Source of the DNA: Gammaproteobacteria bacterium
GTDB lineage: Bacteria; Pseudomonadota; Gammaproteobacteria; DSM-19610
Direction of reading: 5' to 3'
DNA length: 64,000 bases
NCBI GenBank assembly: GCA_026197075.1
Contig: JAPHQV010000013.1
Coordinates: 62,001-126,000 of the forward strand
The notes under the pieces are model-generated. The model did no database searches and had not been told where the DNA came from. It saw only the letters and a program-made list of their open reading frames with translations. How positions within the stretch are numbered: the first letter of the stretch is position 1; the number at the start of each line of letters is the position of its first letter. Of the stretch, positions 2,958 through 44,829 are shown piece by piece. A program made the position numbers and the translations under genes.

Positions 2958-3024
2958 ATAGGAGCGGGCTCTGCCCGCGAACGACTGTGTGGATCCAACG
3001 TTCGCGGGCAGAGCCCGCTCCTAC
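2958..3024. repeat. REP pair (GGAGCGGGCTCTGCCCGCGAA family) inside the dsr operon
   Basis: Two facing copies of a short repeat, each itself palindromic (GAGCGGGCTCTGCCCGC), lie at 2958-2983 and 2999-3024 in opposite orientation with 15 bases between. The same sequence occurs at 43801-43915. This matches the BIME layout of REP elements. It sits between dsrP and dsrN, the only large non-coding interruption of the distal dsr operon, and may stabilise or attenuate the mRNA. Confidence 0.9.
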
Positions 3025-41007: not shown

Positions 41008-42267
41008 TTATTTCCACCACAGACTGAGGAAGGGAATATAGGTAACCAGGCCCAGCCACAGCAGCATCAGCCCTAAAAACGGCAGTACGGAGCGGAACAG
41101 GGTGAGAATGGAGCGGCGAAAGCGCTGCATGGCGATGTACAGGTTCAGCCCCACGGGTGGGGTGCTGTAGCCGATCTCCATATTGGCGAGGAACAGAATG
41201 CCGAGATGCACGGGGTCGACGCCGTAGAGCAGCGCCAGGGGCAGGATCAAGGGCACTACCACCACAGTGGCGGAGAAGATGTCCATGGTGGCGCCGACGA
41301 TGAGCAGAAATAGGTTCAGCAACAGCAGGAATTTGAGTTTGCTGTCCACGCTGCCTTCCATCCACTCGAGTATTTTCGTGGGCAGCTGGGCGTCGATGAG
41401 CAGGTTGGTGAGGCCCATGGCCACGCCCAGGATGATGAGGATACTGCCCACCAGCAAGGTGGTCTCCGACAGCAGTTCCATCAGTTGCCGGCGCAAGTTC
41501 AGGGTGCGGTGGATGAAGGCCTCCAGGATCAGTACATAGAGGCCGGTGCAGGCGGCGGCCTCGCTGATGGTGACGAAGCCGCCGAAGATGCCAATGACCA
41601 CCAGCACCGGCAACAACAGGTCCCAGATACCCATGCGCAACGCCTGGCGTGCCTCGCCCCAGGAAAAGTCCTGGCGTGGCACGCCGGCGAACTTGCCGAT
41701 GAGGCCGCTGTAGAGCACCAGGATCACCAGCAACAGCAGTCCCGGCACCAGGCCGGCCAGGAACAGTTCGTCGATGTTGACCCCGGCGACGATGCCATAG
41801 AGCAGGATCGCCAGGCTGGGGGGGAACAGCAGCCCCAGCGAGCCGGAGGAGGTGAGCAGGCCCAGGGAGAAGCGCTCCGGGTAGCCGGCACGGCTGAGCA
41901 TGGGCAGCAGCAGCCCGCCCAGGGCCAGGATGGTGACACCCGAGGCACCGGAGAAGGAGGTGAAGAAGGCGCAGGCCACCAGGGCGACGGCGGCGATGCC
42001 CCCGGGCAGCCAGCCCAGCAGGCTGTTGAACAGGCGTACCAGGCGCTGGGCCGCGCCGCCCGCCGCCAGCACCACCCCGGCGAAGGTGAACAGGGGAATG
42101 GCGGTGAGGTTTGGCGAGGCCGCCAGGCGGCTGATCTCGATGATGAGCACCGCCGGCACCAGGTCGGCGGAATGGGCCGCCAGCAGGCTGCCGGCGCCCA
42201 GCACCACGAACAGGGGGAGGCCGAGCAGGGCCAGCAGGACCAGGCCGAGGACCAGCATGATCATCAC
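41008..42267 (-). CDS. dctM: TRAP transporter large permease (DctM)
   Basis: The 419-residue protein has about 12 membrane segments and the DctM family pattern (GASGVTILALGGLLLPMLSRAGYP, GLLFPPSLAILLYGI). It is the sodium- or proton-coupled permease of a tripartite TRAP uptake system in the inner membrane. Its ATG overlaps the dctQ stop by 4 bases. The substrate, probably an organic acid, cannot be told. Confidence 0.94.
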   Translation of the reverse strand: MMIMLVLGLVLLALLGLPLFVVLGAGSLLAAHSADLVPAVLIIEISRLAASPNLTAIPLFTFAGVVLAAGGAAQRLVRLFNSLLGWLPGGIAAVALVACAFFTSFSGASGVTILALGGLLLPMLSRAGYPERFSLGLLTSSGSLGLLFPPSLAILLYGIVAGVNIDELFLAGLVPGLLLLVILVLYSGLIGKFAGVPRQDFSWGEARQALRMGIWDLLLPVLVVIGIFGGFVTISEAAACTGLYVLILEAFIHRTLNLRRQLMELLSETTLLVGSILIILGVAMGLTNLLIDAQLPTKILEWMEGSVDSKLKFLLLLNLFLLIVGATMDIFSATVVVVPLILPLALLYGVDPVHLGILFLANMEIGYSTPPVGLNLYIAMQRFRRSILTLFRSVLPFLGLMLLWLGLVTYIPFLSLWWK

Positions 42268-42749
42268 GGGGGACTCGGCTCCGCCGCCGGCTTGCCGATC
42301 AGGCCGGCGAGCAGGAAATGCAGGCTCAGCAGGCCGAAGCCCACGGGCAGGATGAGCGCCAGCAAGGTCATCCAGCGTTCATCGTCGCTGACGTAGGTCC
42401 ATTCATCCCACCAGTACGCCCAGGCCGCCTGGCACAGCAGGGCGGTGACCAGCGCACCGATGAAGTGCAGAGGGCGATGGAGTCGGTCGCGCCAGCATTT
42501 CCCGAGCCAGACGCACAGCACATCGAGGCTGATGTGGCGTTGCCCATGAATGGCCAGGATGGCACCGAAGAAGGTGACGTAGAGCACCAGGTAACGGGTC
42601 AGGGTGTCGGCCATGGGCAGGCCGATGGAGAACAGATTGCGGGCGACGATCTGGGTCAGGGCGAGAATCAGCAACAGCAGCAGGCAGGCACCGCCAAGCC
42701 AGCGCTCCACGCGCAGCAGCCGGGCCTGGATGTCGGCCAGCAGCGCCAA
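42264..42749 (-). CDS. dctQ: TRAP transporter small permease (DctQ)
   Basis: The 161-residue protein has four membrane segments typical of the DctQ family (NLFSIGLPMADTLTRYLVLYVTFFGA). It supports DctM. It begins 2 bases after the dctP stop and overlaps dctM by 4 bases, so the three are translationally coupled. Confidence 0.92.
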   Translation of the reverse strand: MALLADIQARLLRVERWLGGACLLLLLILALTQIVARNLFSIGLPMADTLTRYLVLYVTFFGAILAIHGQRHISLDVLCVWLGKCWRDRLHRPLHFIGALVTALLCQAAWAYWWDEWTYVSDDERWMTLLALILPVGFGLLSLHFLLAGLIGKPAAEPSPP

Positions 42750-42751
42750 GT

Positions 42752-43954
42752 TCAGGGTGCCGCGACGGGCTGTGCGGCGGCCTGGGCCCGCTGCTTGTCG
42801 ATCAGGCGGCGGGTTTCCTCGATCAGGGCTTCGGGGATGTAACCGCTGTCCATGAGTTCGCGCGCGGCGCGGTCGGAGATGGCGCGCAGTTCCGCTTCAC
42901 GCATGCCCTCGCTGGCCGCCACCACCGTCAAACCGCGCTTGCGCAGCTCGGTCATGCTCTTCTCGTTATCGATGCGACTGGCCTCGATCAGGCGCTTGCC
43001 GATCTCCTGGCCGGTCTCCCGCAGCAGCGCCTGCAGTTCTTTCGGAAGACGATCATAGAAGCGCTTGGTGACCACCAGGGCGCCCATGGCGTTGGTCAGG
43101 GGCGTCTCCGAGACATAGTCGGTCTTGGTGAACCATTGCAGGGCGATGGAAGCCAGGGGTGTGCTGTACACCGTGTCGATGAGGCCGGTGGACAGGCTGG
43201 TGAATACGTCGATGATGGACAGGGGTACGGGGGAGATCCCGCTGGCGTTGAAGAAGGCGCGACCCAGCGGGTCACCCTGCCACAGCCAGACGCGGCGCGA
43301 CTTGAGGGCGTCCACGCTTGCCACCGGCTGCTTGGAGAAGATGTGCACGAATCCCACTTCCATCCAGCCCAGTAATTCGTAACCGTTGTCCCGGAAGCCT
43401 TCCTCGAATCGTGGCGTGAAGTGCTCGCGCACGTAATCGATCTCGGCAAAGTTCTCGAACAGGAAGGGCAGTTCCAGTACCCGGGCCGGGGAATACATCT
43501 CGCCGATACCATGGCCACTGAAGGCGCCACCGTGCACCTGGCCGAAGCGCATCTTTTTCAGGACATCGGGCTCGTCACCCTGGATGCCACCGGGATAGAA
43601 CTTGAATGCAAGCCGTCCTTCGCTACGCTCGCGCACCTCGGCGGCCCATTCCTCCAGCAAAACCATCCAGGTGGAGCCGGGCGGGGCGAGGGTGGCGAAC
43701 TTCAGTTCGAACTCGGGTTTGGCGCAGGCGCTGGTGGCGAGCAGCAGCAGACACAGGGCGAGCAACCCTCCTCGCAGCCAAGCATTACCGATACCTCCCC
43801 GTAGGAGCGGGCTCTGCCCGCGAACATTCGCGGCCAAGGCTGCTCCTGCGGGAGGATTGTTTGAGCGTGTTGCAGCGGGTAACGACGAGCATTCGCGGGC
43901 AGAGCCCGCTCCTACAGGGGGATGATCCTGCGCCGGGTACGTGCATCCATTCAT
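42752..43954 (-). CDS. dctP: TRAP transporter substrate-binding protein (DctP)
   Basis: The mature protein (from about AKPEFELKFATLAPPGSTW) is a DctP-family periplasmic binding protein of about 330 residues. The signal peptide is GLLALCLLLLATSACA. The start is unclear. ATG 43954 has AGGAG 8 bases upstream and overlaps the tatT stop (TGATG), but the first 50 or so codons then read through a REP array (43801-43915) in frame. Another ATG (43785) with good GGGGAGG is out of frame. Either the REP array entered the coding start, or translation restarts at TTG or CTG inside the signal region. Confidence 0.85.
   Translation of the reverse strand: MNGCTYPAQDHPPVGAGSARECSSLPAATRSNNPPAGAALAANVRGQSPLLRGGIGNAWLRGGLLALCLLLLATSACAKPEFELKFATLAPPGSTWMVLLEEWAAEVRERSEGRLAFKFYPGGIQGDEPDVLKKMRFGQVHGGAFSGHGIGEMYSPARVLELPFLFENFAEIDYVREHFTPRFEEGFRDNGYELLGWMEVGFVHIFSKQPVASVDALKSRRVWLWQGDPLGRAFFNASGISPVPLSIIDVFTSLSTGLIDTVYSTPLASIALQWFTKTDYVSETPLTNAMGALVVTKRFYDRLPKELQALLRETGQEIGKRLIEASRIDNEKSMTELRKRGLTVVAASEGMREAELRAISDRAARELMDSGYIPEALIEETRRLIDKQRAQAAAQPVAAP
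43801..43915. repeat. REP array (GTAGGAGCGGGCTCTGCCCG family) within the dctP start region
   Basis: Inverse copies at 43801-43828 and 43891-43915, identical in core to those at 2958-3024, flank a third, diverged piece (GGCCAAGGCTGCTCCTGCGG, about 43832-43851). The array lies in the open frame of dctP upstream of the signal peptide. Confidence 0.92.
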
Positions 43955-44829
43955 CAGAACCACTCCTGTTCTTTTTGCAGCAACCAGGCGGCGCGACGCT
44001 TGGCAATGGCATTCGCCAGTTCCATTTCCGGCAACAGACCTGCCGGGGCCTCGAGTACCCGCGTCAGGCGCTGATGGAAGGCTTCCTGGTCGAGTCGTTG
44101 GCGCGCCAGGTATTCCGCGTACAGCACATCGACCAGCAACAGGCGATCCGAGTTCAATTCGTTGGCGCGGGCGAAGTGGGCCGCCGAACGGTCGTAGTCG
44201 CCACCGAACATGGGGGCGCGGCTGCCGAAGTAGACGGCGAAGAACAGGTCCGGACTGGCATGGTGATAGGCGGGCTCGAGTTCCATTACCCGCTCCATGA
44301 GGGCCGCAGTACCGGACAGCTGGGCGATCATGGCCGGGTTGGTGCGATCGAGGTCGATGCGCTTGGCCCAGTTGGAGGCGGTCCAGAACAGCAATGGCAC
44401 AGCATCGGCACGCAGTGGCGCCACGGCGGCGCGGATGGCATCGGGGGAGGCACTTTCCAGCTCGAGTTCGACCCCCAGGTTGCGCAGGCCCTCGCGTCCG
44501 TGTTCATAGCCCCGGCGGTAGAGTTCCGCGGCCCGCTTGGGATCGTCCAGTTCGATGAAGCCGAAGGCGTAGCCGTAGAAGCCCTGGGCGGTATACAGGC
44601 GCAGGGCGAGGTTGCCAGGATCCTTGTGGATCAGACCTTCCAGGAGCTTGATATTGGCGGGGATGGCCTCACGGGCCAGTTCGTAGTCGGGCTCGCGGTT
44701 CAGCGCCTCGACACCGCCGTCGAGCATGGTCACGGAGGTGCGTGCCACCATCTGGCCCATGGAACAGCCGTTCAACAGCAACGCGAGCAGTGCGATGGCC
44801 CAGAGCGGATGGATGGTTGATTTTGTCAT
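43954..44829 (-). CDS. TatT-type TRAP-associated lipoprotein
   Basis: The 291-residue protein has a lipoprotein signal with lipobox LLNGC (about residue 22) and a helical TPR-like body (RAAELYRRGYEHGREGLRNLG, AEYLARQRLDQEAFHQRL). It belongs to the TatT (T component) family found with TRAP transporters, thought to form a trimeric periplasmic partner of DctP. It is the first gene of the TatT-DctP-DctQ-DctM operon, and its stop overlaps the dctP ATG. Confidence 0.9.
   Translation of the reverse strand: MTKSTIHPLWAIALLALLLNGCSMGQMVARTSVTMLDGGVEALNREPDYELAREAIPANIKLLEGLIHKDPGNLALRLYTAQGFYGYAFGFIELDDPKRAAELYRRGYEHGREGLRNLGVELELESASPDAIRAAVAPLRADAVPLLFWTASNWAKRIDLDRTNPAMIAQLSGTAALMERVMELEPAYHHASPDLFFAVYFGSRAPMFGGDYDRSAAHFARANELNSDRLLLVDVLYAEYLARQRLDQEAFHQRLTRVLEAPAGLLPEMELANAIAKRRAAWLLQKEQEWF

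Follow-up and report, generated by a model that had tools for sequence, protein, structure and literature searches.

Within a window of 64,000 nucleotides from a gammaproteobacterial genome (G000), we found an array of GTAG-type REP units directly past the stop codon of tatT and wholly inside the open reading frame of dctP. On the sequence we consider it likely that the array was inserted past the tatT stop and that translation from the ATG at 43954 runs through it, which would place about 54 residues before the Sec signal. The relevant features are as follows.

43954..44829, minus strand: tatT, encoding the T-component of a TRAP transporter (PF16811), whose stop TGA (43954-43956) shares bases with the dctP ATG
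43963..43967, minus strand: AGGAG Shine-Dalgarno-like site, 8 nt ahead of the dctP ATG, kept in the sister species G001
43952..43954, minus strand: dctP ATG within the TGATG overlap, with AGGAG upstream
42752..43954, minus strand: dctP open reading frame, 400 aa, stop at 42752-42754; PF03480 at residues 86-354
43781..43954, minus strand: 58-codon extension ahead of the signal, counted from the dctP ATG
43892..43915, minus strand: solo REP unit GTAGGAGCGGGCTCTGCCCGCGAA in gene sense, read as VGAGSARE; exact match to GTAGGAGCGGGCTCTGCCCGCGA at 43893-43915
about 43827-43849, gene sense: variant REP unit, part of the compact REPIN
43801-43823, opposite sense to the gene: second exact REP unit, part of the compact REPIN
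43798..43852, minus strand: compact REPIN of 55 nt, bounded by CCC/GGG and made up of a head-to-head pair of REP units
43797..43919, minus strand: long mRNA hairpin with 28-nt arms, including part of GGGGAGG (43794-43800)
43783..43785, minus strand: out-of-frame ATG, 8 nt past GGGGAGG, a 27-codon dead end
43775..43777, minus strand: in-frame CTG60 (CTG64 in G001), chief competitor of the ATG as a start
43721..43780, minus strand: Sec-type signal WLRGGLLALCLLLLATSACA, W59-A78, with putative cleavage after A78
42264..42749, minus strand: dctQ (PF04290), from Pfam
41008..42267, minus strand: dctM (PF06808), from Pfam

The gene order tatT, dctP, dctQ, dctM, with the domains PF16811, PF03480, PF04290 and PF06808, is that of a TPAT-type TRAP transporter; pairing of TatT with TatP is described in PMC5812351. 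The first-pass annotation had chosen the ATG at 43954 as the dctP start on account of AGGAG and the TGATG overlap with tatT, had read through the REP array into the signal without meeting a stop, and had placed the signal about 55 residues from the start. Our analysis agreed on each point: AGGAG is spaced 8 nt from the ATG, the 400-aa frame is open to 42752, and the signal at W59-A78 is followed by the Pfam DctP domain from residue 86. The extension does not have native codon usage, with a log-likelihood per codon of -4.41 in frame vs -3.64 for mature dctP.

The array consists of a solo GTAG-type REP and, after a gap of about 40 nt, the 55-nt compact REPIN. The unit GTAGGAGCGGGCTCTGCCCGCGAA is a palindrome of the 20-40 nt size range of GTAG REPs and REPINs and carries GTAG at one end. 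Allowing up to 3 mismatches, REP matches numbered 4 in the window, against 0 in 100 shuffles, and 167 in the whole of G000, where a reversed control pattern gave 0. An alternative REP pattern showed the high copy number of such elements in G000 (196 matches), G001 (469) and G002 (113), and matched 0-5 times per genome in 17 genomes of a third genus; these counts fit the insertion history proposed below. Matches to Y1_Tnp (PF01797), counted by domain alone as candidates for a cognate RAYT transposase, numbered two in G000 and five in G001. Elsewhere in the window another REPIN of two inverted REP units was located at 2958-3024.

The array was absent from all 17 family homologues examined (loci L002-L018), in every one of which tatT was followed by dctP; the family includes MAGs named Thiogranum and Thiohalobacter. 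The leader from ATG to KFAT comprised 26-34 codons (median 31) in these loci vs 85 in G000 and 89 in G001. Six of the 17 had the TGATG tatT/dctP junction, and in the remaining ones no more than about 25 nt separated the dctP start from the tatT stop; the leaders were short and free of the array. The first-pass annotation had raised the possibility that the repeat lengthened the protein and had called for a comparison with relatives lacking it; a long N-terminus without the repeat was seen in none of the 17 homologues, and lengthening by the repeat is favoured. The genus itself was represented among the genomes compared by G000 and its sister species G001 only.

For dctP we infer start use at ATG 43954, read-through, export and cleavage in the following way. 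A GTAG-type REP array was probably inserted just past the tatT stop in an ancestor of the genus. Because the dctP start overlaps the tatT stop, an insertion after this stop lands inside dctP, and the TGATG overlap would have put it within the first dctP codons, in frame and free of stops. Translation would still begin at the coupled ATG and read the array, so that a Sec signal normal in other respects would be preceded by about 54 extra residues. The additional residues would be removed along with the signal peptide, so that mature DctP would stay unchanged and neither it nor its pairing with TatT would need to change. The extension would be tolerated without its sequence being selected; an insertion that shifted the frame or brought in a stop would destroy the gene that follows, and in-frame insertions into the leader would survive.

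In G001 the same array occupies the same position, with AGGAG and TGATG kept, and the TGATG frame is open through the array in both species, being 12 nt longer in G001. The two arrays differ by substitutions, one 12-nt indel (at 43926/43927) and an inversion of the compact REPIN, which in ungapped comparison is identical at 49 of 55 positions when inverted vs 34 of 55 forward. We discarded paired +1/-1 alignment gaps as evidence for frame keeping, since these gaps represent one inverted REPIN; the inversion changes no length and keeps the reading frame, and the argument from frame keeping hangs on the single 12-nt indel.

Up to the signal, the in-frame ATG, GTG and TTG codons of G000 were ATG1, TTG40 and TTG64, and those of G001 were ATG1, GTG8 and, further on, TTG71, which leaves the ATG of TGATG as the only start of these types common to both species that preserves the whole signal. 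A downstream TTG or CTG start, as considered in the first-pass annotation, fared unevenly: TTG64, abutted by AGGAGG, is not TTG in G001, but CTG60 is conserved as CTG64. Together with ATC55/ATT59 it makes up the non-standard start candidates common to the two species. Such a start belongs to an alternative that we regard as unlikely, in which the array separates tatT from dctP without being translated, dctP is initiated with low efficiency past it at a codon other than ATG (CTG60, or ATC55/ATT59 in G001), and the ratio of tatT to dctP is adjusted by the hairpin, a role proposed for intercistronic REPs. The conserved CTG60/CTG64 would yield a normal short signal peptide of textbook type (MRGGLLALCLLLLATSACA), the hairpin is very stable (-122.3 kcal/mol for a fold over 251 nt, z -4.72), and location outside the true gene is held to be the usual situation for N-terminal REPs in PMC3733652. 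The extension is moreover neutral and shows no codon bias, and both the neutral drift and the absent codon usage, equally expected of an untranslated spacer, count against read-through. However, CTG is a rare start type, no ATG, GTG or TTG past the array is common to both species, and GGGGAGG, the sole Shine-Dalgarno-like motif nearby, is located 16 nt from CTG60, is partly paired and reads GGGGGGG in G001. The partial cover of this motif by the hairpin argues against a start 3' of the array, and since the hairpin sets in about 35 nt 3' of the dctP ATG, initiation at that ATG should stay free. In neither species does the ATG at 43785 lie in the dctP frame, and as an old start it would need an older frameshift.

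Open frames are common 3' of REP clusters, and the missing stop in dctP alone is therefore weak evidence. The REP unit is stop-free in five of six frames, and 135 of 564 frames were open in 174-nt REP-centred stretches. Among called genes 3' of REP clusters, 24 of 85 in G000 (among the matches listed) and 15 of 56 in G001 (first 100 of 469 sites) were open through the cluster anyway, so that we rejected an open frame as proof of translation. For the TGATG frame to be open in both species without selection, a rough chance of about 0.03 was obtained (0.24 x 0.33 x 0.36, where 0.33 stands for one in three for the indel and 0.36 for the chance that 44 random changes create no stop), which speaks against an untranslated spacer.

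Between G000 and G001, dN/dS (Nei-Gojobori) was 0.12 for tatT, 0.10 for dctQ and 0.07 for dctM, and in dctP it reached 0.13 for the first 56 mature codons and 0.22 for the C part. For the signal (20 codons) it was 0.28 and for the extension (58 codons) 0.93, the latter value being inflated by the REPIN inversion. Mature dctP is thus conserved while the extension drifts neutrally. The low values of mature dctP between the two array carriers imply that the gene stayed translated after the insertion, and the value of the extension implies that its sequence is free to drift. Given that mature dctP, at 0.13-0.22, lies near tatT, dctQ and dctM and that the gene is intact in G000, we find it improbable that the insertion abolished the dctP start, with dctP becoming a pseudogene and the open frame being an accident of stop-poor REPs. 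This possibility draws on the openness of REP units in five of six frames and on a 206-nt frameshifting deletion in the dctP of G001 (L020 around 1506, contig C262), which represents either incipient decay into a pseudogene or an artefact of assembly. That the array occurs in two genomes only, in one of which dctP is broken by this deletion, also counts against read-through. An own job of the extension, for example slower export or targeting as in long autotransporter signal sequences, is barely credible: the extension is kept in both species and has a net charge of +2, but no amino-acid constraint is seen with a dN/dS of 0.93 and an inverted REPIN.

For a broader view of REP clusters, 172 sites in G000 (among the matches listed) were grouped into 113 clusters, of which 103 were fetched and 94 kept after exclusion of contig ends and repeats, while the first 100 of 469 sites in G001 gave 58 fetched and 57 kept clusters; genes were called with a home-made frame score. 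In 83 of 119 gene calls of G000 a same-strand stop lay 5-124 nt upstream of the cluster, and in 23 of the 119 (L078-L180) the REP's own TAG was the stop of the upstream gene, both among the matches listed. As is usual for GTAG REPs and REPINs, the units were mostly intergenic, near 3' ends and sometimes supplied a TAG stop, a placement also described for other species in PMC3733652. The position of REP clusters right after stop codons explains the entry point of the array at tatT/dctP.

Using six frame models, we found no convincing mid-gene REP among the 94 clusters of G000 (among the matches listed), L138 giving a mixed outcome. Codon-usage scoring trained on the longest open reading frames had yielded several mid-gene candidates, most of which looked like antisense frames on inspection. 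Two further candidates were rejected: the REP in L080 sits upstream of the start of a gene that we take, by the look of its sequence, to be IspG-like, and L243 of G001 combines a REP before a presumably ArgE-like start with a chance match. The 61 non-open genes of G000 were inspected if at least 12 codons preceded the first start or if the start lay at least 95 nt past the cluster, and the inspected ones, judged by eye, had plausible starts 3' of the REP. Clear cases without ATG, GTG or TTG between the REP and the conserved part amounted to two of 85 (among the matches listed), one being dctP and the other a prepilin-like gene. Neither frame meets a stop within its cluster, for which the chance is about 0.28 squared, or 0.08; as support for read-through from the upstream start this is suggestive only.

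The prepilin-like gene (L143 1169-1672, G000 contig C34) encodes an N_methyl motif and contains a REPIN in frame before the prepilin cleavage site. The GspH-like gene upstream of it ends in an ATGA overlap, and the frame proceeds from MNRRAGTIGS through the REPIN to a leader ending in RRQA, followed by GFSLIELVIV. Its homologues in L190-L197 (8 of 11 loci) likewise begin at this ATGA; their leaders measure about 5-13 residues and contain no REP. An in-frame ATG inside the REPIN loop is a possible alternative start. We put forward tentatively, with more doubt than for dctP itself, that REP transposition directed to the 3' ends of genes may, at stop/start overlaps, regularly place repeats among the first codons of the following gene, that tolerant leaders (Sec, prepilin) may survive this, and that REP-rich genomes may steadily gain in-frame pre-leaders. 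If true, annotation and signal predictors confined to the first residues would overlook pre-leaders carried by exported proteins from coupled operons, and such export signals may escape tools whose search stays close to the annotated start.

REPs in frame within genes, N-termini included, are already in print (PMC3733652, and PMC10969869 for Rickettsia palindromic elements), and dctP illustrates well a type of event described before, with better-than-usual evidence for a coding N-terminal REP. According to PMC3733652, the intragenic GTAG REPs of 'REP-decorated' proteins are in frame, often occur as dimers or groups and encode 20-30 aa, up to 82 aa. The dctP array resembles them in that its GTAG REP units lie in frame and wholly within an open reading frame of known function. 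N-terminal intragenic REPs are known there but called doubtful as coding, with the caution that most may fall outside the true gene. Unlike in that set, dctP was tested for a better downstream start, with no common ATG, GTG or TTG found, and its array, present in two species, lies where two genes overlap and ahead of a Sec signal. The same text leaves the coding status of N-terminal REPs open, and the usual downstream start is missing from both dctP and the prepilin-like gene. The dctP array offers a case, accessible to experiment, in which selfish repeat DNA has probably turned into protein where this is tolerated, in the cut-off part of an exported protein.

Rickettsia palindromic elements likewise are palindromic repeats in frame within protein genes, and N-terminal RPE-1 proteins are reported as expressed (PMC10969869 and PMC3733652). 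These elements are described there as about 150 bp long with a conserved peptide per element, whereas the REPs found here are mostly intergenic units of 23-24 nt whose peptide drifts and whose REPIN is inverted. With REPINs, as characterized in PMC3116915, the array shares two inverted REP units, a hairpin and high copy number; REPINs are described there as outside genes, whereas the compact REPIN lies inside a reading frame and is inverted between the two species. Long autotransporter signals (PMC2805444) also place a long N-terminal stretch ahead of the export signal, but those are frequent and domain-organised, and here the stretch would be a neutral repeat product in a TRAP binding protein. 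Our literature search over 5.39 million papers, which left most subscription journals outside, found none joining REPs, an N-terminal extension and a signal peptide; a further search turned up one paper, on a Geobacter genome.

A possible third and weaker case of the same arrangement is truD (L101 1188-2237, G000 contig C11), whose first codons seemingly derive from a single REP (MLAP-VGAAFGRE-). The REP codes for VGAAFGRE behind the ATG, with an alternative TTG start 3' of it, and is absent from G001 and the other relatives shown.
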